Below, in pieces: positions 13,610 through 33,357 of a stretch of 42,568 bases of DNA. This DNA comes from Cellvibrionaceae bacterium (GTDB taxonomy: Bacteria > Pseudomonadota > Gammaproteobacteria > Pseudomonadales > Cellvibrionaceae). The notes under the pieces are model-generated. The model was not told where the DNA came from, ran no database searches, and saw nothing but the letters and a program-made list of their open reading frames with translations. Location: NCBI GenBank assembly GCA_027012915.1, contig JALUYN010000541.1, positions 1 through 42,568 of the forward strand, in the 5' to 3' direction. The stretch's first letter is position 1, and every line of letters begins with the position of its first letter. Position numbers and translations under genes: made by a program.

Positions 13610-14698
13610 TTAGAGCAGGTCGATGCTGTTGAGCACTTCCTTCCAGATTGGTCCTTTTTTGTTGGCTACTTCTGTCTCAAAGTAGTGTTTCATGCGACGT
13701 CGGTCGGTTTCGTTGTCTTTAAGAGCTGCGCCGACAAGGAAGTGAACCATATCCGCTGCTTGCATCTCGCTGTCGCGATAATAGTAGGCATAGACACCCA
13801 TGGCATGAGCCACGGCCACAGCTTCGGCGGTGGACATGACGGTAGAGGCCAGGCGGTCGGTACTGCGGCCACTGAGCGAGCAGCCATTGCGCAGCTCATG
13901 GAATATTGTGGCCAGCACTTCGATAATGCGGATATCGGGTTCGAGGGGCACACCGGATTGCACCAGCATTTTTTTTGATTCGCGATAAATGACCCCGATC
14001 TCGTCTTCAACTTTGGCAATGGGGCGTACGGTTTCAAAATTGAGACGGCGCTTTAGCGCTGCGCTCATCACATTGACGCCTTCGTCGAGACTGTTGGAGG
14101 TGGCAACAATATTAAATCCTTCGCGAGCATAGAGAATGCCATCCGCGCCGGAAAGTTCGGGTACCAGAATCATGCGCTCAGACAAGATCGACAGAATCGC
14201 GTCTTGCAAGGCGGGTGTACAACGAGCGATTTCTTCAAAGCGAACCAACTTTCCCTGTTTCATTCCCTGATAGATAGGTCCGGGGCGCAGGGCGGCCAGT
14301 GATGGTCCCTCGGTTTGCAGTAACGCTTCGTTCCAGCTATACAGCAGCTGCGTAACTTGCTCAATCGCGCCACCTTGAATTGTGAGTGTGGATTGATTGG
14401 ATATGGCTGCGCAAAGCAATTCAGAAAGCCAGGATTTAGCGGTTCCAGGCTCTCCCACCAACATGGCGCCACGGTTGGTTGCCAGTCCGATAATAATACG
14501 GCCAATCACTTCTCTGGGGGCGACAATTTTCTTCTCGATAGAGAGCTTGCGATCGCCGAGAATGAATTTCTCCACTGCCAGTGGTGACATTTGCCAGCCG
14601 GGCGGGCAGTGGTGGCTGTCCCATTGTTTCAGGTGGGACAGTTCATCGGCGTAGATATTTTCTGCCGAGGGGCGCTGAAGTTGTGTTGCTGTAGTCAT
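13610..14698 (-). CDS. MoxR-type AAA+ ATPase (orphan)
   Basis: A 362-residue AAA+ protein with Walker A GEPGTAKS (82-89), a Walker B-like segment LVRFEEIARC (151-160; Glu-Glu where Asp-Glu is usual) and sensor 1 in VATSNSLDEG. The pattern GEPGTAKSWLSELLCAAIS is typical of the MoxR-like ATPases that usually work with a VWA-domain partner and DUF5682/SWIM proteins as metal-insertion or protein-remodelling chaperones. No such partner is nearby: the flanking genes are an HD protein and the GspE fusion on the same strand. The ribosome site is weak, but the ATG at 14698 is the only reasonable start. Confidence 0.85.
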   Translation of the reverse strand: MTTATQLQRPSAENIYADELSHLKQWDSHHCPPGWQMSPLAVEKFILGDRKLSIEKKIVAPREVIGRIIIGLATNRGAMLVGEPGTAKSWLSELLCAAISNQSTLTIQGGAIEQVTQLLYSWNEALLQTEGPSLAALRPGPIYQGMKQGKLVRFEEIARCTPALQDAILSILSERMILVPELSGADGILYAREGFNIVATSNSLDEGVNVMSAALKRRLNFETVRPIAKVEDEIGVIYRESKKMLVQSGVPLEPDIRIIEVLATIFHELRNGCSLSGRSTDRLASTVMSTAEAVAVAHAMGVYAYYYRDSEMQAADMVHFLVGAALKDNETDRRRMKHYFETEVANKKGPIWKEVLNSIDLL

Positions 14699-14750: not shown

Positions 14751-17036
14751 TTACTGTCTTCCGAAATGACCGCGTTGCTCTGGCGCCATGCGCTCGGCGG
14801 GCAGAATGCGCGGCAGCTCCGAAAGCGGAATAACACCTTGAATAACATGATCCAGAGCGCTGTCGCGCATGGTGATCAAACCTGAATCCAGTGCAGTTTC
14901 TCTAAGCTCAAGAATAGGCTGCTGCTGTGAAATCGCACTGCGAATATCGGTGTTCACCTGCATGTACTCCATGACACCGATGCGACCCTTGGTGCCGCGC
15001 CCATCGCAGTGGGTACAACCAGCACCTTCGAAACAGCGGAAGTTATCAGGTACACCACCGGGGAACAGCTCTTTGAGAATAGCCGGGTCAGGTTCTGCGG
15101 GCTGTCGGCAGGAGGGGCAAATACGCTTGGCCAAACGTTGCGCAATTACCGCCAGCAATTCGCTGGCAATGGAGTTGGGGTGCACATTGAGGTCGTACAG
15201 GCGTTGCAGCGCGTCGGTAGCGTCGTTGCAGTGCAGGGTCGATAGTACTACGTGGCCTGTTTGCGAGGCACGAAGCGCTTCAACGGCAGTTTCGTTGTCT
15301 CGAATTTCCCCGACCAGAATAACGTCCGGATCCTGGCGTACGAACGAGCGCATGGCGTCGGAAAAGTGAAAATCAATCTCAGGGCGTATCTGGGTCTGTT
15401 GAATATTGGGGATCGAGTATTCCACCGGATCTTCCGCGGTGATCACTTTGCGGCGGCCGTCATTGGCCAGCAATTTTAAACCGGCGTAGAGAGTGGTGGA
15501 TTTGCCCGAGCCGGTGGGGCCCACCACCAGAATCAAACCTGCCGGGTTGTCCAGCAACCGCTTGTAACCACTGGCAATCAAAGGCGCGAGCCCAAGGTCA
15601 TCAATGCCCAGGAGGTTCTCGTTTTGAGGCAGTAGCCGGATGACAACACTTTCGCCGTGCAGCGATGGTTGTACCTGTATTCGCAAATCGTAGCTTACCG
15701 CGCCGACCTGCATGCGTGAGCGACCACCTTGAGGCAGACGTTTTTCGGCGATGTTCAGTTCGGAGCGGATCTTGATTACGTTTACCAGTCCGCGAACTTC
15801 CTGAGGTGACAATTGGTAGTGTTCGATGTCCCGCAATTCACCATCAATGCGAAAGCGAATGCGCATGCGTTTGTCGTACTGTTCGATGTGTATGTCACTG
15901 GCCCGCTCACTAACGGCGTCCATTAACAAAGCGTCCAGAAGGGCGATCAGATGCGCTTCCACCTCGGACTTCTTGCTGGTTAACCGTTGCTCTTCGTTTT
16001 CCTGTTCGGCCTTGCTGAAGTTCTTGAGCTGTTTGATTTCCCCTTGCAGGCACAGCTCCAATAATCCCCACAGGCGTCGAAAGTCCAGGGGCGTAATCAG
16101 CACCTTGTCGATTTTCAGATTGGAGTACAGGGGCTGCAGATCTGAGGTGTCCACTTCCGGATCGTAGGTGGCGACCAACATGTTTTTGTCGGTCCGATAT
16201 AGGGGGATCAAATGTAGCAGATCGAGAAAGCTGCGGGAGAAACTGCCGAAGAACTCCGGGTCGGCGATGGGAATCAGCTCGTCCAGAGCGCGAAATTCGA
16301 TCTCGCTTTGCATGGCGAGATTTCGATAGAGATCGATCTCCTCCACATTGACCATCTTGCGCAGCACATCAATCAGTGGCTTGCCTTCTTTGCGAGCACG
16401 CTCCTTGGCTTTTTCCAGAGCGAAATCATCAATCATGCCCAGATCCATCATGATGGAGCCGGTATCGAAGCACTGTTCCAGAGGTCCCAGTTCAACCCTT
16501 TTGAAGCCTTTGTCATCGGCGTGATATTTGACCAACAGAGAGGTGTGAAACTCGTCTTCTTCCACCGCCAGCAGATAGCCTTCGCGCTTGAGCTGGCTTA
16601 GCAGAATCTTGCGCGCAGTAACACCTGGTGATGAGACGATGATCAGATCAAATGGGCTCATCTCCGGGCAACCCAGACTGCCGTCGCGATGCTTCAGCGT
16701 GATATTGTCCAACCCCAGCTTCTTAAAACGCTGTTTTGCCGCCCGGGCCAGGCTGGGGCAGCTCTCGAGAGCCACTACCTTGTCGACCATGCGACTGATC
16801 AGTGCCGTGAAGTAGCCAGACCCCGTGCCAATTTCCAGAACCCGGTAGTTGGGTTTAAGCTCGATGGAGTTGAGAATTTGTTCAACGCGCTTTTGTGGCG
16901 GAATAGAATGACCGTGAACATTGTCGTGGTGACTCAGTTCCACAAATTCCTGGCGGGGAATGGCGTCAATTGCCTGTTGCACGGTCATGGGGCCGTACTT
17001 CCGTACATGCACGGGGTCAGGTGTCTGCAGTGTCAT
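14751..17036 (-). CDS. Fusion: isoaspartate-methyltransferase-like domain + GspE-type secretion ATPase
   Basis: A single 761-residue reading frame. Residues about 35-190 resemble protein-L-isoaspartate O-methyltransferase: SAM motif VLEIGTGSGY (66-75), the acidic VVALES after strand 2, and FDLIIVSSP. About 195-340 look like the N-terminal (MshEN/GspE-N) region. About 355-750 are a complete type II secretion/type IV pilus ATPase: SDIHIE (380-385), Walker A GPTGSGKS (506-513), the Asp-box DPVEY (536-540), Walker B VILVGEIRD (572-580), a His-box with HVVLSTLHCN, and a CPSC...CTHC zinc site (640-677). No other secretion or pilus genes flank it. It may supply the motor to a remote system. No frameshift or stop separates the halves. 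Confidence 0.88.
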   Translation of the reverse strand: MTLQTPDPVHVRKYGPMTVQQAIDAIPRQEFVELSHHDNVHGHSIPPQKRVEQILNSIELKPNYRVLEIGTGSGYFTALISRMVDKVVALESCPSLARAAKQRFKKLGLDNITLKHRDGSLGCPEMSPFDLIIVSSPGVTARKILLSQLKREGYLLAVEEDEFHTSLLVKYHADDKGFKRVELGPLEQCFDTGSIMMDLGMIDDFALEKAKERARKEGKPLIDVLRKMVNVEEIDLYRNLAMQSEIEFRALDELIPIADPEFFGSFSRSFLDLLHLIPLYRTDKNMLVATYDPEVDTSDLQPLYSNLKIDKVLITPLDFRRLWGLLELCLQGEIKQLKNFSKAEQENEEQRLTSKKSEVEAHLIALLDALLMDAVSERASDIHIEQYDKRMRIRFRIDGELRDIEHYQLSPQEVRGLVNVIKIRSELNIAEKRLPQGGRSRMQVGAVSYDLRIQVQPSLHGESVVIRLLPQNENLLGIDDLGLAPLIASGYKRLLDNPAGLILVVGPTGSGKSTTLYAGLKLLANDGRRKVITAEDPVEYSIPNIQQTQIRPEIDFHFSDAMRSFVRQDPDVILVGEIRDNETAVEALRASQTGHVVLSTLHCNDATDALQRLYDLNVHPNSIASELLAVIAQRLAKRICPSCRQPAEPDPAILKELFPGGVPDNFRCFEGAGCTHCDGRGTKGRIGVMEYMQVNTDIRSAISQQQPILELRETALDSGLITMRDSALDHVIQGVIPLSELPRILPAERMAPEQRGHFGRQ

Positions 17037-23563: not shown

Positions 23564-24778
23564 ATGGACAGCCAGAATCTAAAGACTATGAATATCTCCG
23601 CGCCACAGATTAAAACCCTCGATCAGATCCTGCCTGAGGAGCCGCTGTTAATGATGGGAGCCGGTCCTGTACCAATTCCAGAAGCAGTGGCTCAGGCCAA
23701 TGGCATTGTTATCAATCACCTCGGCGATACCATGGCGCAGATTATCGGTCAGGTGAAAACCATGGCGGGTTATATTTTCCAGACTGCGTCTCCCTGGATT
23801 GTGGGCGTTGCAGGTCCGGGTTCAGCGGCGATGGAGATGGCCGTAGCGAACCTGGTGTGGAAGGACACCAAGGTATTGAGCATTTGTAATGGCTTCTTTT
23901 CCGGGCGCCTTTCAGAAATGGCGGAACGCGCAGGCGGCCAGGTTGAAAAACTGATGGTCAGTGAGGGCGACAGCGCCAATGTCGAGATAATACGCGCGGA
24001 ATTGGAGCGGTTGAAGCCTGAAGTAATCACGATTGTTCAGGGCGAAACTTCCAATACCACTCACAATCATGAATTACCTGCCATTGGCGAACTGGCCAAA
24101 GAGTTTGGCTGTTATCTGATTGTAGATGCGGTGTGTACCTTGAGTACCCTGCCGTTGCATATGGATGAGTGGCACATCGATGCGGTGATTACCGGAGGGC
24201 AGAAAGGCCTGAGTTCAATTCCTGGCGTATCGCTGGTGGCCTTCTCGGAAAAAGCCTGGCGGCGCATCGACACCCGGCCCTATCAGTTGCCGCAGTGGAC
24301 TCTGGATGCCAAGTTGGCTACCAATTTCTGGCACAAGGCATCGTATCATTACACAGCACCGGTATCGGGCTTGTTAGCGCTGCATGAAGCCATGCGTTTG
24401 GTGTGTCGGGAGACTTTGGACGAGCGATTCCGGCGCCATCAGGTATGCTCCGAAGCATTGCAGGAGGCTATTGAAACTCTGGGCCTGGATCTCTATGTGC
24501 CCAAGGTGAATCGACTCAATTCGGTGGTAGGTATCAAGTTGCCCGAAGGACTTGAAGCCAAGACTGTATGCGGTCATATCTCGAAGCACTATCGCGTTGA
24601 AATTGCGGGTTCGTTTGGACCGCCGATTGTGCGCATTGGGCAAATGGGAGAGCAGTGTCGCGCCCACAATCTGTTTCGCACATTGCACGCACTGGGCTCG
24701 ACGTTTAATGATCTCGGTGTGGACGTAGATGTGCCTTCCAGTATGGCAGCTCTGGAGAATGCCCTGCAACGCAAGTAA
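23564..24778 (+). CDS. Class V aminotransferase (serine/alanine-glyoxylate type)
   Basis: A 404-residue PLP enzyme of the alanine-glyoxylate/serine-pyruvate aminotransferase group. MGAGPVPIPEAV (about 31-42) is the substrate loop, ETSNT (161-165) the cofactor contact, Asp188 in LIVDAVCT, and the Schiff-base Lys214 in TGGQKGLSS. The C-terminal SFGPPIVRIGQMG carries the carboxylate-binding Arg. Likely donors are alanine or serine and the acceptor glyoxylate or pyruvate, but the substrate cannot be fixed. The start may be 23564 or the in-frame ATG at 23588; both have weak ribosome sites. Confidence 0.88.
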   Translation: MDSQNLKTMNISAPQIKTLDQILPEEPLLMMGAGPVPIPEAVAQANGIVINHLGDTMAQIIGQVKTMAGYIFQTASPWIVGVAGPGSAAMEMAVANLVWKDTKVLSICNGFFSGRLSEMAERAGGQVEKLMVSEGDSANVEIIRAELERLKPEVITIVQGETSNTTHNHELPAIGELAKEFGCYLIVDAVCTLSTLPLHMDEWHIDAVITGGQKGLSSIPGVSLVAFSEKAWRRIDTRPYQLPQWTLDAKLATNFWHKASYHYTAPVSGLLALHEAMRLVCRETLDERFRRHQVCSEALQEAIETLGLDLYVPKVNRLNSVVGIKLPEGLEAKTVCGHISKHYRVEIAGSFGPPIVRIGQMGEQCRAHNLFRTLHALGSTFNDLGVDVDVPSSMAALENALQRK

Positions 24779-24906
24779 CGGCGCACGTCTCAGAGGTTTC
24801 TTAGACTTTAGCCGTGGTTGGTACACTTCCTGCTTTCTTGGTCGACATCTTTACGTAATATGAACCTGTAAGGATGTTAAGAGGCGAGAAAGGATGGAAC
24901 TCTACT

Positions 24907-26367
24907 ATGAGCGGGCTGTGGAACGACTACGAAAATAACAACTTTTACGATGAATTACTGACTCCCTCGGGCAATCCGAGGGTGGCGGCCAGACAACTGG
25001 TGTCCTATCTGGGCGGTCTTTCTCCTGATGAAATAGAGGCCCGAAAACTCGCGGCGGAATCGACCATACGCGAGATGGGAGTGTCTTTTACGGTATATAC
25101 CGACGAGGGCAATATCGACAGAGCCTGGCCATTCGATATTGTGCCAAGGGTTATTACCCGCAAGCAGTGGGATCTTACTTCCGCCGGTCTTCAGCAGCGC
25201 CTTACGGCACTGAATATGTTTATTGATGATCTCTATAATGATCAGAAAATCATCAAAGATGGCATAGTGCCTGAATTTGTTCTCAAACAATCAAAAAACT
25301 ACTTGAAAGAGTGTGAAGGCATTTCGCCCAAATTTGGTGTTTGGGCGCATATCTGTGGGACCGATTTGGTGCGTGACAAGGATGGCCAGTTCTACGTACT
25401 GGAAGATAATCTCCGAGTGCCCTCCGGTGTTTCCTACATGCTCGAAAATCGCTCCATTATGAAGCGCGTGCTGCCCGAGGTATTTGAAAAGGTAGAAGTC
25501 GCGCCGGTAAACGACTACCCCGCTCGATTATTGGATACGCTTATATCACTGTCCCCCAGAAACGTGAGAAAGCCGGTGGTTACGGTGCTGACGCCGGGCA
25601 TTTTCAATTCTGCCTATTTTGAGCACGCCTTTCTGGCGCAACAGATGGGGGCCGAGTTGGTCGAAGGACAGGATCTGGTGGTTCAGGACGACTGCGTCTA
25701 TATGAAAACTATCGCCGGGCTGGAACGGGTCGATGTGATCTATCGCCGCATTGATGATGCCTTTCTCGACCCGGAAGTGTTCAACAAGGACTCCGTACTG
25801 GGTGTTCCAGGGTTGATGCGAGCGTGGAAGGCCGGCAATGTGGCGCTCGCCAATGCTCCGGGAGCGGGCGTTGCCGACGATAAGGTGGTCTATGCCTATG
25901 TGCCCGATATCATCAAGTATTATCTGGACGAAGACCCGTTGATCCCCAACGTGGAAACCTTTTTGTGCTACGACGACAAGCAGCGCCAGCATGTGCTTGA
26001 GAATTTGGACAAGCTGGTGGTGAAACCTGCGAATGAATCCGGTGGCTATGGCATGTTGATCGGGCCTCATTCCACCAAAAAAGAACGGGAAACCTTCGCG
26101 GGCCTTATCAAGGCCAATCCGCGTAATTATATCGCCCAGCCAACACTGTCATTGTCCACAGCCCCGACGCTGGTTCGAACGGGGGTTGCCGAACCCCGGC
26201 ACCTGGACCTGAGGCCTTTTATTTTGCAGGGCAGGGAATCTTATGTAACCACCGGCGGGCTGACCCGGGTGGCGATGAAAAAAGGTTCTCTGGTGGTCAA
26301 TTCTTCCCAGGGAGGAGGCAGTAAAGACACCTGGATTGTGGATACATCGGGTAAGGAGACGAAGTAA
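24907..26367 (+). CDS. Circularly permuted ATP-grasp ligase (DUF404/DUF407 type)
   Basis: First gene of the amidoligase cassette. The 486-residue protein has the hallmarks of the circularly permuted ATP-grasp family: N-terminal WNDYENNNFYDELLTPSG, a metal site VLEDNLRVPSG (Glu166, Asp167, Asn168), and a nucleotide-binding Lys373 with a glycine-rich loop KPANESGGYGM. GGGSKDTWI closes the domain. Such enzymes are predicted to join a carboxylate to an amine using ATP; no reaction has been firmly shown for the family. The active residues look intact. I prefer the ATG at 24907, which yields the usual family N-terminus, over 24874. The stop overlaps the next start (TAATG). Confidence 0.9.
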   Translation: MSGLWNDYENNNFYDELLTPSGNPRVAARQLVSYLGGLSPDEIEARKLAAESTIREMGVSFTVYTDEGNIDRAWPFDIVPRVITRKQWDLTSAGLQQRLTALNMFIDDLYNDQKIIKDGIVPEFVLKQSKNYLKECEGISPKFGVWAHICGTDLVRDKDGQFYVLEDNLRVPSGVSYMLENRSIMKRVLPEVFEKVEVAPVNDYPARLLDTLISLSPRNVRKPVVTVLTPGIFNSAYFEHAFLAQQMGAELVEGQDLVVQDDCVYMKTIAGLERVDVIYRRIDDAFLDPEVFNKDSVLGVPGLMRAWKAGNVALANAPGAGVADDKVVYAYVPDIIKYYLDEDPLIPNVETFLCYDDKQRQHVLENLDKLVVKPANESGGYGMLIGPHSTKKERETFAGLIKANPRNYIAQPTLSLSTAPTLVRTGVAEPRHLDLRPFILQGRESYVTTGGLTRVAMKKGSLVVNSSQGGGSKDTWIVDTSGKETK

Positions 26368-27302
26368 TGCTGTCTACAGTCGCTGAACGAATTTACTGGG
26401 CTGCCCGTTATCTGGAGCGGATCGAGAGCACTGCAAGGATGATCAGCATTTACGATAATTTGCTGTTCGATTTGCCGCGAAGTGAAAAACTGAGCTGGTA
26501 CAGCCTGATCACCATTAACAGTCTGGATCGGGAATTCAACCGCCAATACACCGTGCGCGACGAGCGCAATATCGTCAAGTTTATGCTCGGAGATGAGATC
26601 AACCCGTCGTCGGTGCTGTCATCGTTGCGAGCCATCAGAGAAAATGTCCGCACTACCCGGGATGTGATCCCCGGAGAAAGCTGGGAGCTTATCAACGAGC
26701 TGAGTCTGTATGTGCAGGAGAATATGGATCAGGGGATCGGTCGTCGCAAGCGCCATGAATTTCTCGATACCATCGTCAAGGCCTGTCAGCAGATTCTTGG
26801 CTTTTGGGTCGGTACCATGCCCCGTGACGAAGCCTGGGCTATTGTCATGCTGGGATTGAATATGGAACGCGCCGACATGACCAGTCGTCATCTGGATGTC
26901 GGCTCGGCCATGTTGATAGAGGTTGCCGACGATGATCAGGCGGTGAACAGCGTTCAGATCATTCTCGGTACGGTCCTGCGTTCGGTCCACGCCCATCAAT
27001 CCTATTTGCGCAGTACTCGCAGTTCCGTCAGCACTCGCCAGGTCATTCAATATTTGCTCGATGATCGTTCCTTTCCCCGTTCGTTGGGTTTTTGCCTGAA
27101 TCATATTGAAGCCAGTTGCCGCAGTCTGCCAAACAGCAAGCCGCTGCAGGAAAAAATTGCGCAGCTAAGGCAAAAAGCGGTTGAGGAGATTAACGAAGAG
27201 TTTTCGCCGCAGGAATTTCGCGAGTATCTCAATCGTTTGCAGATTAGACTCGGTGGCCTTCATCAGACCATCGCCAACAGCTGGTTTCCCGCGAATCCTT
27301 AA
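26367..27302 (+). CDS. Alpha-E domain protein (DUF403)
   Basis: A 311-residue all-helical protein. It begins MLSTVAERIYWAARYLERIE, the standard opening of the alpha-E family found beside circularly permuted ATP-grasp ligases. It has no catalytic motif I can recognise; a scaffold or substrate-carrier role with the ligase is predicted for the family. Its start codon overlaps the ligase stop by one base, so the two are translationally coupled. A second alpha-E domain occurs as the C-terminal half of the gene at 30826. Confidence 0.9.
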   Translation: MLSTVAERIYWAARYLERIESTARMISIYDNLLFDLPRSEKLSWYSLITINSLDREFNRQYTVRDERNIVKFMLGDEINPSSVLSSLRAIRENVRTTRDVIPGESWELINELSLYVQENMDQGIGRRKRHEFLDTIVKACQQILGFWVGTMPRDEAWAIVMLGLNMERADMTSRHLDVGSAMLIEVADDDQAVNSVQIILGTVLRSVHAHQSYLRSTRSSVSTRQVIQYLLDDRSFPRSLGFCLNHIEASCRSLPNSKPLQEKIAQLRQKAVEEINEEFSPQEFREYLNRLQIRLGGLHQTIANSWFPANP

Positions 27303-27361
27303 TTAATCTGTCACGGTCATTAAAGTGCCCATGTCATTGTGAATTTACCTCAGGAGCAGGT

Positions 27362-30300
27362 ATGGCTATCCGCATAGCGATTAATCATAAAACCAGCTAC
27401 AGCTTTGATAAACCGGTCAAGCTATCGCCGCATGTCGTCAGGCTGCGCCCGGCGCCGCACAGTCGTACGCCCATTCATGCGTACAGTCTGAAGGTTCTTC
27501 CAGAAGATCACTTTATCAATTGGCAGCAGGACGCTTTTGGCAACTATCTCGCTCGTTTGGTGTTTCCCGAGAAAACAGAAAAGCTGGAATTCGAGGTTGA
27601 AGTGATTGCCGATATGACGGTAATCAATCCCTTCGACTTTTTTGTTGAAGAGTACTCTGAAAAATTTCCGTTCAGCTACCCCGATCAATTAAAAAAAGAG
27701 CTCGATCCCTGCCTTGAATTACTGGAGTGCGGAGAAAAATTTGATGACTTTTTAAGTCAGGTGTCGCTGAAAGAGACTCCGATTATCGACTTTCTGGTCG
27801 CCCTCAATCAGCAAGTGGAGCAGGCCATTGAATACGGTGTGCGCATGGAGCCCGGTGTACAGACACCAGAGGAGACCCTGACCCTGGAAAAAGGCTCCTG
27901 TCGTGACAGCGCCTGGCTGCTGGTGCAACTGCTGAGGCATTTGGGGCTGGCCGCGCGATTTGCCTCCGGTTATCTGGTGCAACTGAAGCCCGATGAAAAA
28001 TCCCTCGATGGTCCATCCGGTGCCGAAGAAGATTTTACCGACCTTCATGCCTGGTGTGAGGTTTACATTCCGGGAGCTGGCTGGGTCGGTCTGGACCCCA
28101 CCTCTGGGCTGTTTGCCGGAGAGGGTCATATTCCTCTGGCCTGCACACCGCACCCGGTTTCTGCCGCTCCCATTGAAGGTGCTACCGACAAATGTGAAGT
28201 GACCTTTGACTACAGCAATGTGGTTACCCGGGTACACGAAGACCCGCGAGTGACCAAACCCTACAGCGATGAGCAGTGGCTGGAGGCAGAGGCTCTGGGG
28301 GCGCTTATTGACCGGCAGCTGGAGGCCGAAGATGTGCGCCTGACCATGGGCGGTGAGCCTACCTTTGTGTCTATTGATGATATGGAGTCGGCCCAGTGGA
28401 ACACCGAGGCGCTGGGTGAGGATAAGCTGCGACTGGCAAAAACCCTGTTGTTGCGTCTGCGTGATCATTTCGCACCCAAGGGGTTGTTGCACTACGGTCA
28501 GGGCAAGTGGTATCCCGGTGAGGAGGTGCCCCGCTGGGCTCTGGGTTTGTTCTGGCGCAAGGATGGCGAATCGCTGTGGAACGATCACACACTACTGGCC
28601 CGGGTGGACAAGGATTACGGACACACCGCCAAAACCGCAAAAGGTTTTATTAAAAAGCTGGCACAGAAGCTGAGCGTTGATCGCAAATACATTAACCCCG
28701 CCTACGAAGACGGCATTTATTATCTGCTACAGGAGCAAAAGCTGCCGCCCAACATTGATGTGCTGGCTAGCAAGGTAAAAGACGACCTGGCCAGACGACG
28801 GCTGGCGCGCCTGCTGGAGCGGGGCATGGATAAGCCCGCGGGTTACGTGCTGCCGCTGGCCAGTGATAAAGGGCAGTGGAACAGTAGTATCTGGGAATTC
28901 AAGCGCGAGCGCCTGATTCTGATACCGGGCGATTCACCACTGGGTTTGCGTTTGCCACTGGCCGATCTGCCCTGGAGTAAAACACCCAGGGAAAATCTGG
29001 CCGCGGACCCGTTTGCTCCGCGACAGGAATTGCCGTCCCGTGAACAACTGATTAAAGGCTTTGGGGTATCACAGAGCGGTGATGTTACTGAGTCAACTCC
29101 GGAATCGGAGGTTGAACGTCAACCTACTGTATCCACCAACGAGCCCGATGAGATTATTCGCACGGCAATAAGTGTGGAGGCGAGAGATGGAAAACTGCAT
29201 ATCTTTATGCCGCCCTGTGAGACCCTGGATCAGTACGTTGCCTTGATAACCGCCATTGAGGAATCGGCCGCAGAGAAGCAAACCCCTGTGATTATCGAAG
29301 GCTATGAACCACCGCGCGATCCCCGCATGCAAAAACTGCTGGTAACGCCAGACCCGGGTGTCATTGAAGTCAATATTCACCCCACCTCAAACTGGCGGGA
29401 TATGGTGGACAATATGAACGAGCTCTACGCCGCGGCCCGTGAGTCGCGCCTGGGTACAGAGAAGTTCATGCTCGATGGCCGACACACCGGCACCGGCGGC
29501 GGCAACCATATCACGCTGGGAGGCCCGACGCCGGCAGACAGCCCGATGCTGCGGCGCCCGGATCTGCTCAGAAGTTTTGTCAGTTTCTGGCAGCATCACC
29601 CGAGTTTGTCCTATCTGTTTTCCGGTGCCTTTATAGGGCCGACCAGTCAGGCTCCCCGTGCCGACGAGGGACGTGATGAAATGCTCTACGAGATGGAAAT
29701 TGCGTTTCAACAAATGCCCGATGGCTTTACGGATCAGCCGTGGCTGATTGATCGCCTGATGCGCAATCTGTTGATCGATATTACCGGCAATACTCATCGC
29801 GCGGAGTTCTGTATTGATAAACTCTACGCGCCAAACAGTTCCACCGGGCGGCTGGGGTTACTGGAATTTCGCGGTTTTGAAATGCCGCCCCACAGTCGCA
29901 TGGCGCTGGTGCAGGCGTTGCTGATTCGCGCGCTGGTGCTGCGCTTCTGGAAACAGCCGTATCGCAAAGATCTGGTGCGCTGGGGTACTTCCCTGCACGA
30001 TAAATTCATGTTGCCACACTTTATCTGGCGCGACGTGGAAGATGTGGTGGCCGATCTCAATGAGCATGGTATTGATTTTAAGGCCGAGTGGCTGCTGCCG
30101 TTTGAAGAATTCCGTTTCCCCCATTACGGGCGCGTCAATCTCGATGACATTGAAATTGAACTGCGCTGGGCTATCGAACCCTGGCATGTGCTGGGTGAAG
30201 AGGTGGGCAGTTTTGGTACGGCCCGCTATGTGGATTCTTCCGTTGAAAGGCTTCAGGTCAAAGTCACCGGCCTGACCGATTCCCGTTATGTACTGTCCTG

Positions 30301-30724
30301 TAACGGTCGTCGTGTGCCGCTTCATAGTACCGGCAGAAAAGGCGAATACGTCGCTGGTGTGCGCTATCGTGCCTGGGCACCGCCATCGGCGTTGCACCCT
30401 ACCATTGGTGTGCACACACCACTGGTGTTCGATTTGATTGACACCTGGAACGGTCGTGCGGTGGGCGGCTGTACCTATCATGTTTCCCATCCGGGCGGGC
30501 GCAGCTACGACACCTTCCCGGTGAATGCGTTTGAGGCGGAATCGCGCCGGGTCAATCGCTACGAAACCATCGGTCATACACCGGGGCCTTTCAGTCCAAG
30601 GCCGGAAGTGGACGCGCTGCGAGAGTTTTTTGCGAGCCATGAGCCGCCAAGGCCGATGGAGCCGCCGGTAGAGGAGCCGATGGACGAATACCCCTATACT
30701 CTGGATCTGCGCAAAAGGCCGTAG
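27362..30724 (+). CDS. Transglutaminase-like domain fused to DUF2126 (permuted GS-like ligase)
   Basis: A 1120-residue fusion. Residues 1-280 are a transglutaminase-like cysteine peptidase: N-terminal beta domain, Cys180 (KGSCRDSAW), His229 (DLHAWCEVY) and Asp245 (GLDPTSG) as the catalytic triad. About 300-1110 are DUF2126, described by Iyer and colleagues as a circularly permuted glutamine-synthetase-like ligase. Conserved stretches include MGGEPTFVSID, RHTGTGGGNHITLGGP and RAEFCIDKLYAP, which provide Glu and His metal ligands. A peptidase-type and an amide-forming domain in one chain fit cleavage and ligation of the same peptide bond. AGGAGCAGG precedes the ATG. Longest gene of the cassette. 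Confidence 0.9.
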   Translation: MAIRIAINHKTSYSFDKPVKLSPHVVRLRPAPHSRTPIHAYSLKVLPEDHFINWQQDAFGNYLARLVFPEKTEKLEFEVEVIADMTVINPFDFFVEEYSEKFPFSYPDQLKKELDPCLELLECGEKFDDFLSQVSLKETPIIDFLVALNQQVEQAIEYGVRMEPGVQTPEETLTLEKGSCRDSAWLLVQLLRHLGLAARFASGYLVQLKPDEKSLDGPSGAEEDFTDLHAWCEVYIPGAGWVGLDPTSGLFAGEGHIPLACTPHPVSAAPIEGATDKCEVTFDYSNVVTRVHEDPRVTKPYSDEQWLEAEALGALIDRQLEAEDVRLTMGGEPTFVSIDDMESAQWNTEALGEDKLRLAKTLLLRLRDHFAPKGLLHYGQGKWYPGEEVPRWALGLFWRKDGESLWNDHTLLARVDKDYGHTAKTAKGFIKKLAQKLSVDRKYINPAYEDGIYYLLQEQKLPPNIDVLASKVKDDLARRRLARLLERGMDKPAGYVLPLASDKGQWNSSIWEFKRERLILIPGDSPLGLRLPLADLPWSKTPRENLAADPFAPRQELPSREQLIKGFGVSQSGDVTESTPESEVERQPTVSTNEPDEIIRTAISVEARDGKLHIFMPPCETLDQYVALITAIEESAAEKQTPVIIEGYEPPRDPRMQKLLVTPDPGVIEVNIHPTSNWRDMVDNMNELYAAARESRLGTEKFMLDGRHTGTGGGNHITLGGPTPADSPMLRRPDLLRSFVSFWQHHPSLSYLFSGAFIGPTSQAPRADEGRDEMLYEMEIAFQQMPDGFTDQPWLIDRLMRNLLIDITGNTHRAEFCIDKLYAPNSSTGRLGLLEFRGFEMPPHSRMALVQALLIRALVLRFWKQPYRKDLVRWGTSLHDKFMLPHFIWRDVEDVVADLNEHGIDFKAEWLLPFEEFRFPHYGRVNLDDIEIELRWAIEPWHVLGEEVGSFGTARYVDSSVERLQVKVTGLTDSRYVLSCNGRRVPLHSTGRKGEYVAGVRYRAWAPPSALHPTIGVHTPLVFDLIDTWNGRAVGGCTYHVSHPGGRSYDTFPVNAFEAESRRVNRYETIGHTPGPFSPRPEVDALREFFASHEPPRPMEPPVEEPMDEYPYTLDLRKRP

Positions 30725-30730
30725 CAGCCC

Positions 30731-30764
30731 TTGAAGCCAAAGAGTATCGTGCCATAATGCGCGC
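30731..30764 (+). promoter_or_regulatory. Possible internal promoter of the amidoligase cassette
   Basis: TTGAAG (30731-30736) and CATAAT (30753-30758) are separated by 16 bases and followed by GCGCGC, a GC-rich stretch like that after the guaB -10. It lies in the 101-bp gap before the ATP-grasp/alpha-E fusion gene, so the last two genes might be transcribed separately. Confidence 0.4.
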
Positions 30765-30825
30765 TTAAATTTCCCGGGTAATCCGGCAGGCGAGAACAGG
30801 CAATATTGTGAATAAGGACCGGCCC

Positions 30826-33357
30826 ATGGAGGCCTCTAGCGGTAGCAGCGTCCCCTACGCTGTGCGCCCCGGGCAGATTGACGAGGCCTTTGAGGTCAAT
30901 GGCGAGATAAAGCCGCACTGGTCCTACCTGCTCGACGCCATGGGCCAGTTGGATCATTCCGCGTTTGTCAGTCGCGAGAGCAAGGCCCGACGTATCCTTC
31001 GCGATGACGGCGCTACCTACAATGTTTACAGTGATCCGGGAGCTTCGCCCGGCAACTGGGAGCTGGACCTGGTTCCCAACCTTATTGACAGTGAAGAGTG
31101 GGGGAACATCGAGGCGGGGCTGTTGGAACGGGCTGAACTGTTCAATCTGATCCTGCGCGATATCTACGGCCCCAGAGAACTGGTTCGGCAGGGGGCTATT
31201 CCCCCGGAAGCCCTGTTCGCCAATCCCGGCTTCCTTCGCGCCTGTCATGGTCTGCAGATTCCCGGCGACCACGAGCTGATTCTTTACGCGGTTGACCTGA
31301 TGCGTGACGCCAGTGGCGAAATGTGCGTGTTGACTGATCGCACCCAGTGTCCCAGCGGGGCAGGCTATGCGCTGGAAAATCGCACGGTCATGTCCCGTGT
31401 CTTTCCCAGCCTGTTCCGCGACAGTCATGCCCACCGCCTGGCGCCTTTTTTTCAGAAGCTGCGTCGAAAGTTAACGGGATTGTCACCCAATCAGGATGAT
31501 CCCCATGTAGTGGTATTGACGCCGGGTGAGCGCAATGAGGCCTATTTTGAACACGCCTATCTGGCCAATTACCTGGGTTTTTATCTGGTCCAGAGCGATG
31601 ATCTGGTGGTTCGCAATGGTCACGTATGGATGAAATCTCTAGATGGTCTGACCCGTGTCGATGTCATCTTGCGGCGGGTCGATGACTGGTATTGTGATCC
31701 TGTGGAATTACGCGGAGATTCGCACCTGGGGGTGGCCGGTTTGTTGAACGTCGCCCGCTCCGGACGCGTGGTTATCGCCAACCCGCTGGGGGCCGGGATT
31801 CTGGAAAATCCGGTCTTCCTCAAGTACCTGCCTGAAATTTCGAGAAACCTGCTCGGGCGCGAGCTGCGTCTGAAATCGGTGGCCACCTATTGGGCCGGAG
31901 ACCCCGACGATCTCGGTTTTATTGAGAGCAATCTGGATTCGTTGGTAATCAAGCCGGTGTATCGTACCGGGGCCACCAACAGCATCTATGCGGGTAATCT
32001 TTCCCCGCAAGAGCGGCAGCAACTGATCGCCCGACTGCGCCAGCAGCCACGCAATTACGTGGCGCAACCGGAACTGGATGCAGGCTATATTCCTACACTG
32101 GTAGACGGAGGGCTGCAGCCACGCCCCAGTATTCTGAGAAGTTTTGTCGCCGCTTCTGAAAATTCCTACACGGTTATGCCCGGTGGGTTGACCCGGGTGG
32201 GGCAGCAGGAAAACAGTTTCCTGATCTCCAATCAATTAGGCTCGCGCAGCAAAGACACTTGGGTAATTGCTTCTGAGCTTGAGCGGCACAGCAGCGATGC
32301 GGCGGCCGAGGAGGCCGGGCAATTTTCCCGCGATCGCGATCTTTCCAGCCTGCCCAGCCGTGTTGTTGAGAACATGTTCTGGATGGGGCGCTATGCCGAG
32401 CGCGCAGAATCTTCTCTGCGGCTGTTGCGCACCGTGTTTATGGTACTGAACGGCGAAGAGCCGTTAACCGATCAAGCCAAGCACACATTATTGAATGCCG
32501 TAACCGCCATTACTGCCACCACGCCCGATATTTCTTTGAGCGATAACAGCGATTTCGAGGCGGAATTGATCGCCATCATCCTTGAGGCCAATCGCCCGGG
32601 CAGCATAAGAGCCAATCTCGATGCCATGCTCTACTGCACCGAGGCAACCAAAGAGTTGCTGTCCTCCGATACCTTAAGGGTGATCAACGATATTCGCGAT
32701 GCGCTGTCGGAGCTTGATCAGAATATCCAGGGCAGCCTGGTGTCGGCACCGGAAGAATCTCTGGACCCGCTGGTGACGGCGCTTATGGCTCTGTCGGGAT
32801 TGATTAACGAGAGCATGTTGCGAGGCATTGGCTGGCGTTTCCTTGATATGGGACGTCGTCTGGAAAGGAGTCTGCAGCTTACAAAAATCCTCAAGCATCT
32901 GCTGGGGCCTGTGGTTTCAGAGTCGGAACAGAATACGCTGATTGAAACGCTGTTGTTATCCGTCGAAGCGTTGATCAGCTACCGACGCCGTTACCGGGCG
33001 CGACTGGGTGTTCAGGCGTGTCTGGATCTGGTGATGATGGATGCCAATAATCCGCGCTCTTTGATGTATCAACTGGAACTCTTGTCCAGTCATATCGATG
33101 CGCTGCCCAAGCCCGCCGATGGCATCAATGAATTACTCCCGGAAGAGCGAAGCATTATGGCGGCGCTCACCCATGTGAAAATGTCAGTGGCCCTGGAATT
33201 GAGCTCGCGTAACGGTGATCGCCGCTCGCAACTGGATGAGACCCTGAACAAGGTATCGGACCTGCTCCAGAGTGCCAGTAATGTCATCAGTGACAAATAT
33301 TTCGATCACCGTGAGGTTTCCCGACAACTGGTGAACACCTGGGAGGCTGATGAGTGA
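30826..33357 (+). CDS. ATP-grasp/alpha-E fusion protein
   Basis: An 843-residue paralogue combining both earlier proteins: ATP-grasp (about 10-480, with LTPGERNEAYFEHAYLANYL and SKDTWV) and alpha-E (about 505-840, starting SRVVENMFWMGRYAERAES). The ligase half differs at sites that are intact in the stand-alone copy. The metal segment reads VLTDRTQCPSG instead of VLEDNLRVPSG, and the glycine-rich loop is KPVYRTGATNSIYAG. I infer an altered reaction or a regulatory role. AAGGA precedes the ATG at 30826; a GTG at 30808 is possible. The stop overlaps the following GTG start. Confidence 0.9.
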   Translation: MEASSGSSVPYAVRPGQIDEAFEVNGEIKPHWSYLLDAMGQLDHSAFVSRESKARRILRDDGATYNVYSDPGASPGNWELDLVPNLIDSEEWGNIEAGLLERAELFNLILRDIYGPRELVRQGAIPPEALFANPGFLRACHGLQIPGDHELILYAVDLMRDASGEMCVLTDRTQCPSGAGYALENRTVMSRVFPSLFRDSHAHRLAPFFQKLRRKLTGLSPNQDDPHVVVLTPGERNEAYFEHAYLANYLGFYLVQSDDLVVRNGHVWMKSLDGLTRVDVILRRVDDWYCDPVELRGDSHLGVAGLLNVARSGRVVIANPLGAGILENPVFLKYLPEISRNLLGRELRLKSVATYWAGDPDDLGFIESNLDSLVIKPVYRTGATNSIYAGNLSPQERQQLIARLRQQPRNYVAQPELDAGYIPTLVDGGLQPRPSILRSFVAASENSYTVMPGGLTRVGQQENSFLISNQLGSRSKDTWVIASELERHSSDAAAEEAGQFSRDRDLSSLPSRVVENMFWMGRYAERAESSLRLLRTVFMVLNGEEPLTDQAKHTLLNAVTAITATTPDISLSDNSDFEAELIAIILEANRPGSIRANLDAMLYCTEATKELLSSDTLRVINDIRDALSELDQNIQGSLVSAPEESLDPLVTALMALSGLINESMLRGIGWRFLDMGRRLERSLQLTKILKHLLGPVVSESEQNTLIETLLLSVEALISYRRRYRARLGVQACLDLVMMDANNPRSLMYQLELLSSHIDALPKPADGINELLPEERSIMAALTHVKMSVALELSSRNGDRRSQLDETLNKVSDLLQSASNVISDKYFDHREVSRQLVNTWEADE

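Follow-up and report, generated by a model that had tools for sequence, protein, structure and literature searches.

Why should a motor ATPase of the GspE/PilB kind carry a methyltransferase-like domain at its N terminus? The question is raised by a 42,568-nucleotide stretch of DNA from a Cellvibrionaceae bacterium, the whole of which we refer to here as the window. A first-pass annotation had described one uninterrupted frame joining a PCMT-like domain to a complete secretion ATPase. To learn what such a protein might do, we examined its parts, its relatives, its neighbours and the genomes that carry it.

The fusion gene and its parts

The single frame is borne out. It occupies 14751..17036 and encodes 761 aa, but it lies on the minus strand; frame 1 of the plus strand over the same interval has many stops. 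The annotation had expected the PCMT signal within residues 35–190, and Pfam places it at residues 18–160 (16557..16985, minus strand; E 1.1e-24, 87.9 bits against a cut-off of 20.3), with strands of the structure model continuing to about residue 185. Within this domain are SAM motif I, VLEIGTGSGY (residues 66–75; 16812..16841), and the sequence GHSIP (residues 42–46; 16899..16913), which the alignment to 3lbf sets at the position of PIMT GQTIS, Pro46 falling on the substrate Ser. Next come a degenerate tandem c-di-GMP motif region (residues 191–243; 16308..16466), defined from motif counts over family members, and an MshEN domain (residues 258–324; 16065..16265), whose Pfam match is marginally short of the cut-off (E 9.4e-5, 22.8 bits against 23.1). 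The GspE/PilB-type ATPase core follows (residues 360–741; 14814..15959; Pfam T2SSE, E 1.3e-112), and a conserved tail with RMAPE (residues 745–757; 14766..14804) closes the protein. All of these features are on the minus strand. Since the structure model has a mean pLDDT of 72.2 and a pTM of 0.39, we interpret neither the domain arrangement nor the substrate loop.

Family and distribution

Is the architecture peculiar to this assembly? With residues 175–420 as query, the best 120 of 1380 hits include 53 rows (P0121–P0173) that stand apart. PF01135 occurs together with PF00437 in 49 of them, whereas P0125, P0136, P0154 and P0171 have a short N terminus. Beyond these 53 rows the E-value falls sharply, from 2.9e-28 to 2.3e-14, where ordinary PilB/GspE proteins begin. 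Sources of the fusion rows in this set include Seongchinamella sediminis, Halioglobus, Halieaceae and Candidatus Pelagadaptatus aseana (Cellvibrionaceae according to NCBI), whose protein is the closest among the matches listed, at 78%. P0173 is named Myxococcota and, used as query in turn, returns eight more rows (P0240–P0247) with the same two domains, listed without a taxon. The PCMT part alone as query gave no other T2SSE fusion among the best 120 of 144 rows; the relatives surfaced with the middle part. PCMT-like domains are themselves paired with many other domains among the matches listed (P0002–P0120), most often with PF05139, which we take to be erythromycin esterase.

A genome scan with residues 1–345 alone found no relatives; when five N-terminal parts were aligned and used as query instead, 14 loci came up, including those of Seongchinamella unica, S. 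sediminis, Pseudohalioglobus lutimaris, P. sediminis and HTCC2148; cultured Halieaceae are among the carriers. In the family of S. sediminis (genome G001), 15 of 140 genomes match almost the entire N-terminal query, at 16 places, three of which stop close to or at the end of a contig, while a fourth contains a TAA; a further genome matches partially. The order of G001 yields 26 matching genomes of 390 (25 intact, one broken) and the class 2 of 369. Leaving the partial match aside, the family, order and class scans come to 37 different genomes. Absences in the order and class scans, and in the order-wide searches for MoxR and PilB described below, are soft, because just the best 3–5 candidates per genome were scored. 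These genomes and the 49 other database rows answer the annotation's proposal that the same architecture be sought elsewhere. It had the architecture right and missed both the conserved family and the same-strand gene discussed below.

For residue counts we aligned 63 members, all non-identical. Loci supplied 28 of these rows and the database 35, namely P0001 plus 34 of the 49; the repeats L070–L073 and identical rows were excluded. They are not independent; some are close relatives, and some may be one gene with an alternative start.

Could the fusion be an assembly chimera, or two neighbouring genes run together by a frameshift? Nothing in the window speaks for this, and elsewhere one can point to L003, with its internal TAA at apparently the same place as in G035, and to L067, which is without parts of both cassette genes. 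Against it, the identical architecture recurs in isolates and many assemblies. A local assembly error in the window is very unlikely, given that 49 of the 53 rows carry both domains and that 26 of the 390 order genomes match. We therefore rejected the chimera, to which we assign a negligible probability, on the ground that a whole family shares the architecture.

Three cases deserve separate mention. The fusion frame of a Halioglobus metagenome-assembled genome is interrupted (L003, 5514..6704). At L067 (7813..9749, genome G500) both genes are broken, the end of the cut motor running into the tail of the neighbouring MoxR gene, by internal deletion or assembly fault. Contigs C24 and C27 of the metagenome-derived genome G050 (L070 and L071, also L005 and L004) hold two copies of the gene pair, either in one genome or in two strains binned together.

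The methyltransferase-like domain

Does the N-terminal domain repair isoaspartate? In PIMT, Thr60 and Ser62 hydrogen-bond the isoaspartate, and S62A killed activity in Drosophila, according to the accessible text of PMC11522691. In the fusion family the residue aligned to Ser62 is Pro in 63/63 members (the pairing being made through the alignment to 3lbf), and the Thr position of GQTIS is occupied by Ser in 61/63. E. coli Pcm has about nine residues more in the loop ahead of the substrate Ser position, and in the fusions a new loop, GxSIP with variation, is conserved at the PIMT loop site. Motif III PxG is gone in the gamma members. In the distant branch (P0240–P0247) Pro stands at the Ser position in seven of eight, and the Pro of motif III is kept in all eight. 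The PIMT equivalog PRK00312 (NCBIfam) scores the fusion at 120.6 bits, below its cut-off of 188. Moreover, a stand-alone PIMT above the curated cut-off is present in all 27 fusion genomes searched (26 intact and the broken G500). That PCMT is the best Pfam match of the domain, and that the modelled fold matches PIMT, would suit a built-in repair enzyme acting on motor or pilin proteins. The substituted Ser, the shortened loop, the missed cut-off and the separate PIMT tell against it, and we consider repair very improbable. Because of the substitution in every member and the stand-alone enzyme in every fusion genome, this is probably not an isoaspartate-repair motor. So repair, one of the roles guessed in the first-pass annotation, is not borne out, while another, a degenerate sensor of SAM, gains support as one possibility; the domain may also tag some other target.

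What, then, has been retained? In the METHYLTRANSFERASE domain the SAM motif GxGxGY is complete in 63/63 members; this PIMT-derived Rossmann domain thus retains SAM motif I but not the PIMT substrate Ser. Residue 91 is Glu in 60/63 and Asp in 3/63. At D118, which together with G119 is the likely counterpart of Asp134–Gly135 in PMC11522691, Asp is found in just 48/63 and Glu in 8/63, and for this reason SAM binding may have been lost in some members. For the methyltransferase part dN/dS has a defined value in 12 of 13 pairs, where it is 0.05–0.17; for the ATPase it is 0–0.08 in 12 of 13 pairs. Several pairs have a dS exceeding 1. The domain is under constraint, yet faster-evolving than the ATPase. 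With regard to a defence role, PADLOC reports matches to genes of the MADS defence system: mad2 on the methyltransferase part (E 4e-20), together with weak mad3 and mad8 matches.

Might the domain instead be an active methyltransferase with a new substrate, such as a pilin, the platform, the motor itself or the MoxR protein? Motif I, the purifying selection and the conserved new loop in place of that of PIMT are all in keeping with catalysis. The variability of D118 and the loss of motif III PxG in gamma members are harder to reconcile with it, and the context points to no substrate. We judge such an activity distinctly unlikely.

The motor

Is the attached ATPase a working motor? Walker A K512, Walker B E577, the Asp box, the His box and five arginines are present in 63/63 members, and the tetracysteine C640, C643, C674 and C677 is kept in 62–63 of 63. 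The complete ATPase with its four cysteines, as the annotation had it, is thus confirmed in the window, and the motor motifs of the GspE/PilB (T2SSE) class are intact. As to its assignment within that class, the fusion scores 438.4 bits with the PilB equivalog TIGR02538 (cut-off 675.65) and 429.4 bits with the GspE equivalog TIGR02533 (cut-off 630.25). With the TfpB model NF053534 (cut-off 850) the window protein reaches 362.5 bits and its relative at L012 355.1, both under the cut-off. It is most fittingly regarded as a novel form of GspE/PilB motor.

In a tree of T2SSE domains, those of 18 fusions group as a single clade (100/100) whose stem measures 1.53 changes per site, and no close sister to it is found among the 26 non-fusion others. 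Four rows (three PilB, one GspE) lacked the motif used for trimming and were dropped from this tree, and the meeting of long branches drew a warning from the program; the family is for these reasons not placed relative to the PilB of its own genomes. With so long a stem and no close non-fusion sister, the fusion family may have departed from pili altogether.

Does the motor still respond to c-di-GMP? The MshEN motif, RLGxx(LVI)(LVI)xxG..., occurs twice in the domain as described in the available text of PMC5013675. Across the 63 members the motif I Arg is found in one and the motif II Arg in ten; the Gly of RLG is found in 42 at the first motif and in none at the second. With these residues mostly missing, binding of c-di-GMP by this region is unlikely. 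At the other end of the protein, RMAP is found at the C terminus in 62/63 members, and even the looser pattern R[ML]A[PE] in 0/66 non-fusion hits. The C termini of P0240–P0247 show RMAP in three, a variant in four and nothing similar in one.

A MoxR partner

What lies beside the fusion gene? On the same strand, 52 bases downstream of it, 13610..14698 encodes a 362-aa MoxR-type AAA+ ATPase with an AAA_5 match (Pfam, E 6.9e-27). A MoxR gene directly follows the fusion in all 11 loci of a first set with room for it, the window included, and in all 35 loci of a larger set in which the fusion is recognized; 32 of these are distinct, as L071–L073 fetch L004, L002 and L009 again. In the 36th locus, L067, parts of both genes are lost. 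By a longest-frame rule the gap between the two genes is −13 to +17 bases in 32 of the 35 loci and +52 in the window; at −113 and −253 in two others, an upstream start was probably taken. We conclude that the fusion and MoxR genes together make up a conserved two-gene cassette. Evolutionary distances are correlated between MoxR and methyltransferase (r 0.91), MoxR and ATPase (r 0.90) and methyltransferase and ATPase (r 0.82; 465 pairs, 31 loci), as is to be expected from shared ancestry.

MoxR aside, every similarity cluster is confined to 11 or fewer of the 36 loci, so we make no functional claim from other neighbours. In one clade (L054 and several of L055–L067) the cassette sits between chemotaxis/flagellar-type genes and ccmA–ccmC-like genes, adjoining FliK-like and FlhB-tail-like genes (two L054 genes named by Pfam, the others by eye). 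The window itself contains, at 23564..33357 on the plus strand, a cluster encoding two circularly permuted ATP-grasp proteins (one with an Alpha-E domain), a transglutaminase/DUF2126 protein and a class-V aminotransferase.

MoxR systems are known to work with a VWA protein. That none is seen beside the cassette MoxR weighs against the mechanism proposed below; none of the nine window proteins scanned matches VWA or SWIM. With what, then, does MoxR associate where the fusion is absent? Among the 390 genomes of the order, 37 have a MoxR match at E 1e-30 or better, all 26 fusion genomes being among them. In each of the 11 others a diverged MoxR lies, by coordinates, directly beside a DUF5682 match, the MoxR gene being visible in the frame list for ten of the 11. 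VWA-type cluster members occur in all 11 of these loci (one representative checked: VWA_CoxE) and SWIM-type members in seven. DUF5682 is found in 0/27 fusion genomes. MoxR in this 390-genome sample is therefore paired with the fusion or with DUF5682, one or the other.

Which apparatus?

If the fusion is a filament motor, which filament does it drive? The annotation had seen no secretion genes near, and we agree: compared at E 1e-4 with 32 non-overlapping window frames of at least 90 aa, 19 T4P/T2SS proteins of G001 find no relative besides the fusion. Against 632 frames from the 36 loci, comprising frames of 90 aa or more without the shorter of overlapping ones, the same proteins find just the fusions and the L067 remnant.

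At the level of whole genomes, T2SSF is present in 26/26 fusion genomes. PilB exceeds its cut-off in 26/26, against 301/390 in the order (hypergeometric 0.0009–0.0017, a value that ignores kinship and genome completeness). Four genomes have 9–11 T2SSE matches each. In G001 we recognized by eye PilB with PilC and PilD, GspE with T2SS genes, a second GspE-type operon and an orphan motor beside a glnE-like gene. This orphan is itself TfpB (911 bits against the cut-off of 850), and the two fusions tested score 362 and 355; the fusion is thus an additional motor. Two genomes, G373 and G428, have a single T2SSF protein each at E 1e-5, adjoining PilB; of the roughly 2.5 Mb of G373, contig C1 covers 2.47 Mb. 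Should the fusion drive a filament in these two genomes, the sole candidate seen is the type IVa pilus, which is modest ground for preferring it. With no T4P/T2SS relative beside the cassette in 36 loci, the link to pili rests on homology and on these two one-platform genomes.

Alternatively, the cassette could be independent of pili, the motor and MoxR forming a stand-alone two-ATPase remodelling machine for stress, quality control or defence, with the fusion in place of the DUF5682 and VWA proteins. Such a machine would account for the division of the 37 MoxR genomes of the order into 26 with the fusion and 11 with DUF5682, never both, for the differing genomic settings of the cassette, for the absence of pilus genes nearby in 36 loci and for the long stem of the ATPase. 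It sits less easily with an ATPase that retains pilus-motor motifs and cysteines, and with the presence of T2SSF and PilB in every fusion genome searched. We regard it as a somewhat unlikely alternative.

A possible mechanism

How might the cassette work? We tentatively favour, at a little short of an even chance, the view that the fusion is an accessory motor of the extension class, that its SAM-binding domain serves for control or docking, and that it works with a dedicated MoxR, perhaps on type IVa pili. The fusion protein would dock on PilC, the platform of the pilus, in the manner of PilB and TfpB. Binding of SAM (or SAH), or docking alone by way of the methyltransferase fold, would replace c-di-GMP as the N-terminal regulatory input. 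The MoxR ATPase would assemble, remodel or unload the motor, as MoxR proteins do with other complexes, perhaps gripping the conserved RMAPE tail. The SAM input, the remodelling by MoxR and the pilus partner are the parts that we infer. A bolder version, which we think fairly unlikely, makes the fusion a type IV-filament motor of a new regulatory class. It would join PilB and TfpB as a third extension-class ATPase; SAM read by a disabled repair enzyme would replace c-di-GMP as its control input, the motor being loaded or dismantled by a MoxR that swapped DUF5682 and VWA for it.

The adjacency of MoxR to methyltransferase-fronted motors may point to a novel means of regulating them. A true SAM reading would mean that a core metabolite gates a filament motor, and a true MoxR reading that such motors possess dedicated remodelling ATPases. 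Both can be tested, since cultured hosts exist (Seongchinamella, Pseudohalioglobus). Among the open-licence papers that our searches listed, we saw none that treats a pilus-type motor, the PIMT fold and MoxR together, and no title or abstract opening in those lists describes the fusion.

Comparison with known systems

How does the cassette compare with what is known? Relative to PilB (TIGR02538) and GspE (TIGR02533), the fusion has an extra, PIMT-derived N-terminal domain and the RMAPE tail, is without the c-di-GMP motifs, falls below both equivalog cut-offs and belongs to a separate, long-stemmed clade. Acinetobacter baylyi has, in TfpB, a second motor for the extension of its type IV pili (PMC8213720; PMC11656802, from the text accessible). 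Like it, the fusion is of the extension class, and the TfpB gene of G001 also lies, by eye, away from pilus genes; unlike it, the fusions are far below the NF053534 cut-off, and theirs is a motor present in addition to TfpB.

With PIMT/Pcm the domain shares SAM motif I; it differs in the Pro at the substrate Ser, the short loop, the altered motif III and the attached motor. A parallel is CI-PIMT, a subunit of Paracoccus complex I, which the accessible text of PMC11522691 describes as a PIMT having lost its substrate residues and its SAM contacts. Both are PIMT paralogues without substrate residues inside a larger machine, but the fusion family retains motif I in 63/63 members.

MoxR proteins are chaperone-like (PMC3893208, in the part available). 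The nearest relatives of the cassette MoxR found outside the cassette are ten MoxR proteins of MoxR–DUF5682–VWA–SWIM clusters, at 36–45% identity; unlike those clusters, the fusion genomes are without DUF5682, and VWA and SWIM have no match in the window proteins scanned. Archaeal T4P loci carry vWA and MoxR/GvpN genes, as the available text of PMC4858521 reports. On the reading favoured here, they resemble the cassette in tying a MoxR-type ATPase to a type IV pilus system, a likeness at the level of the MoxR type; they differ from it in that the archaeal pair includes a vWA protein.
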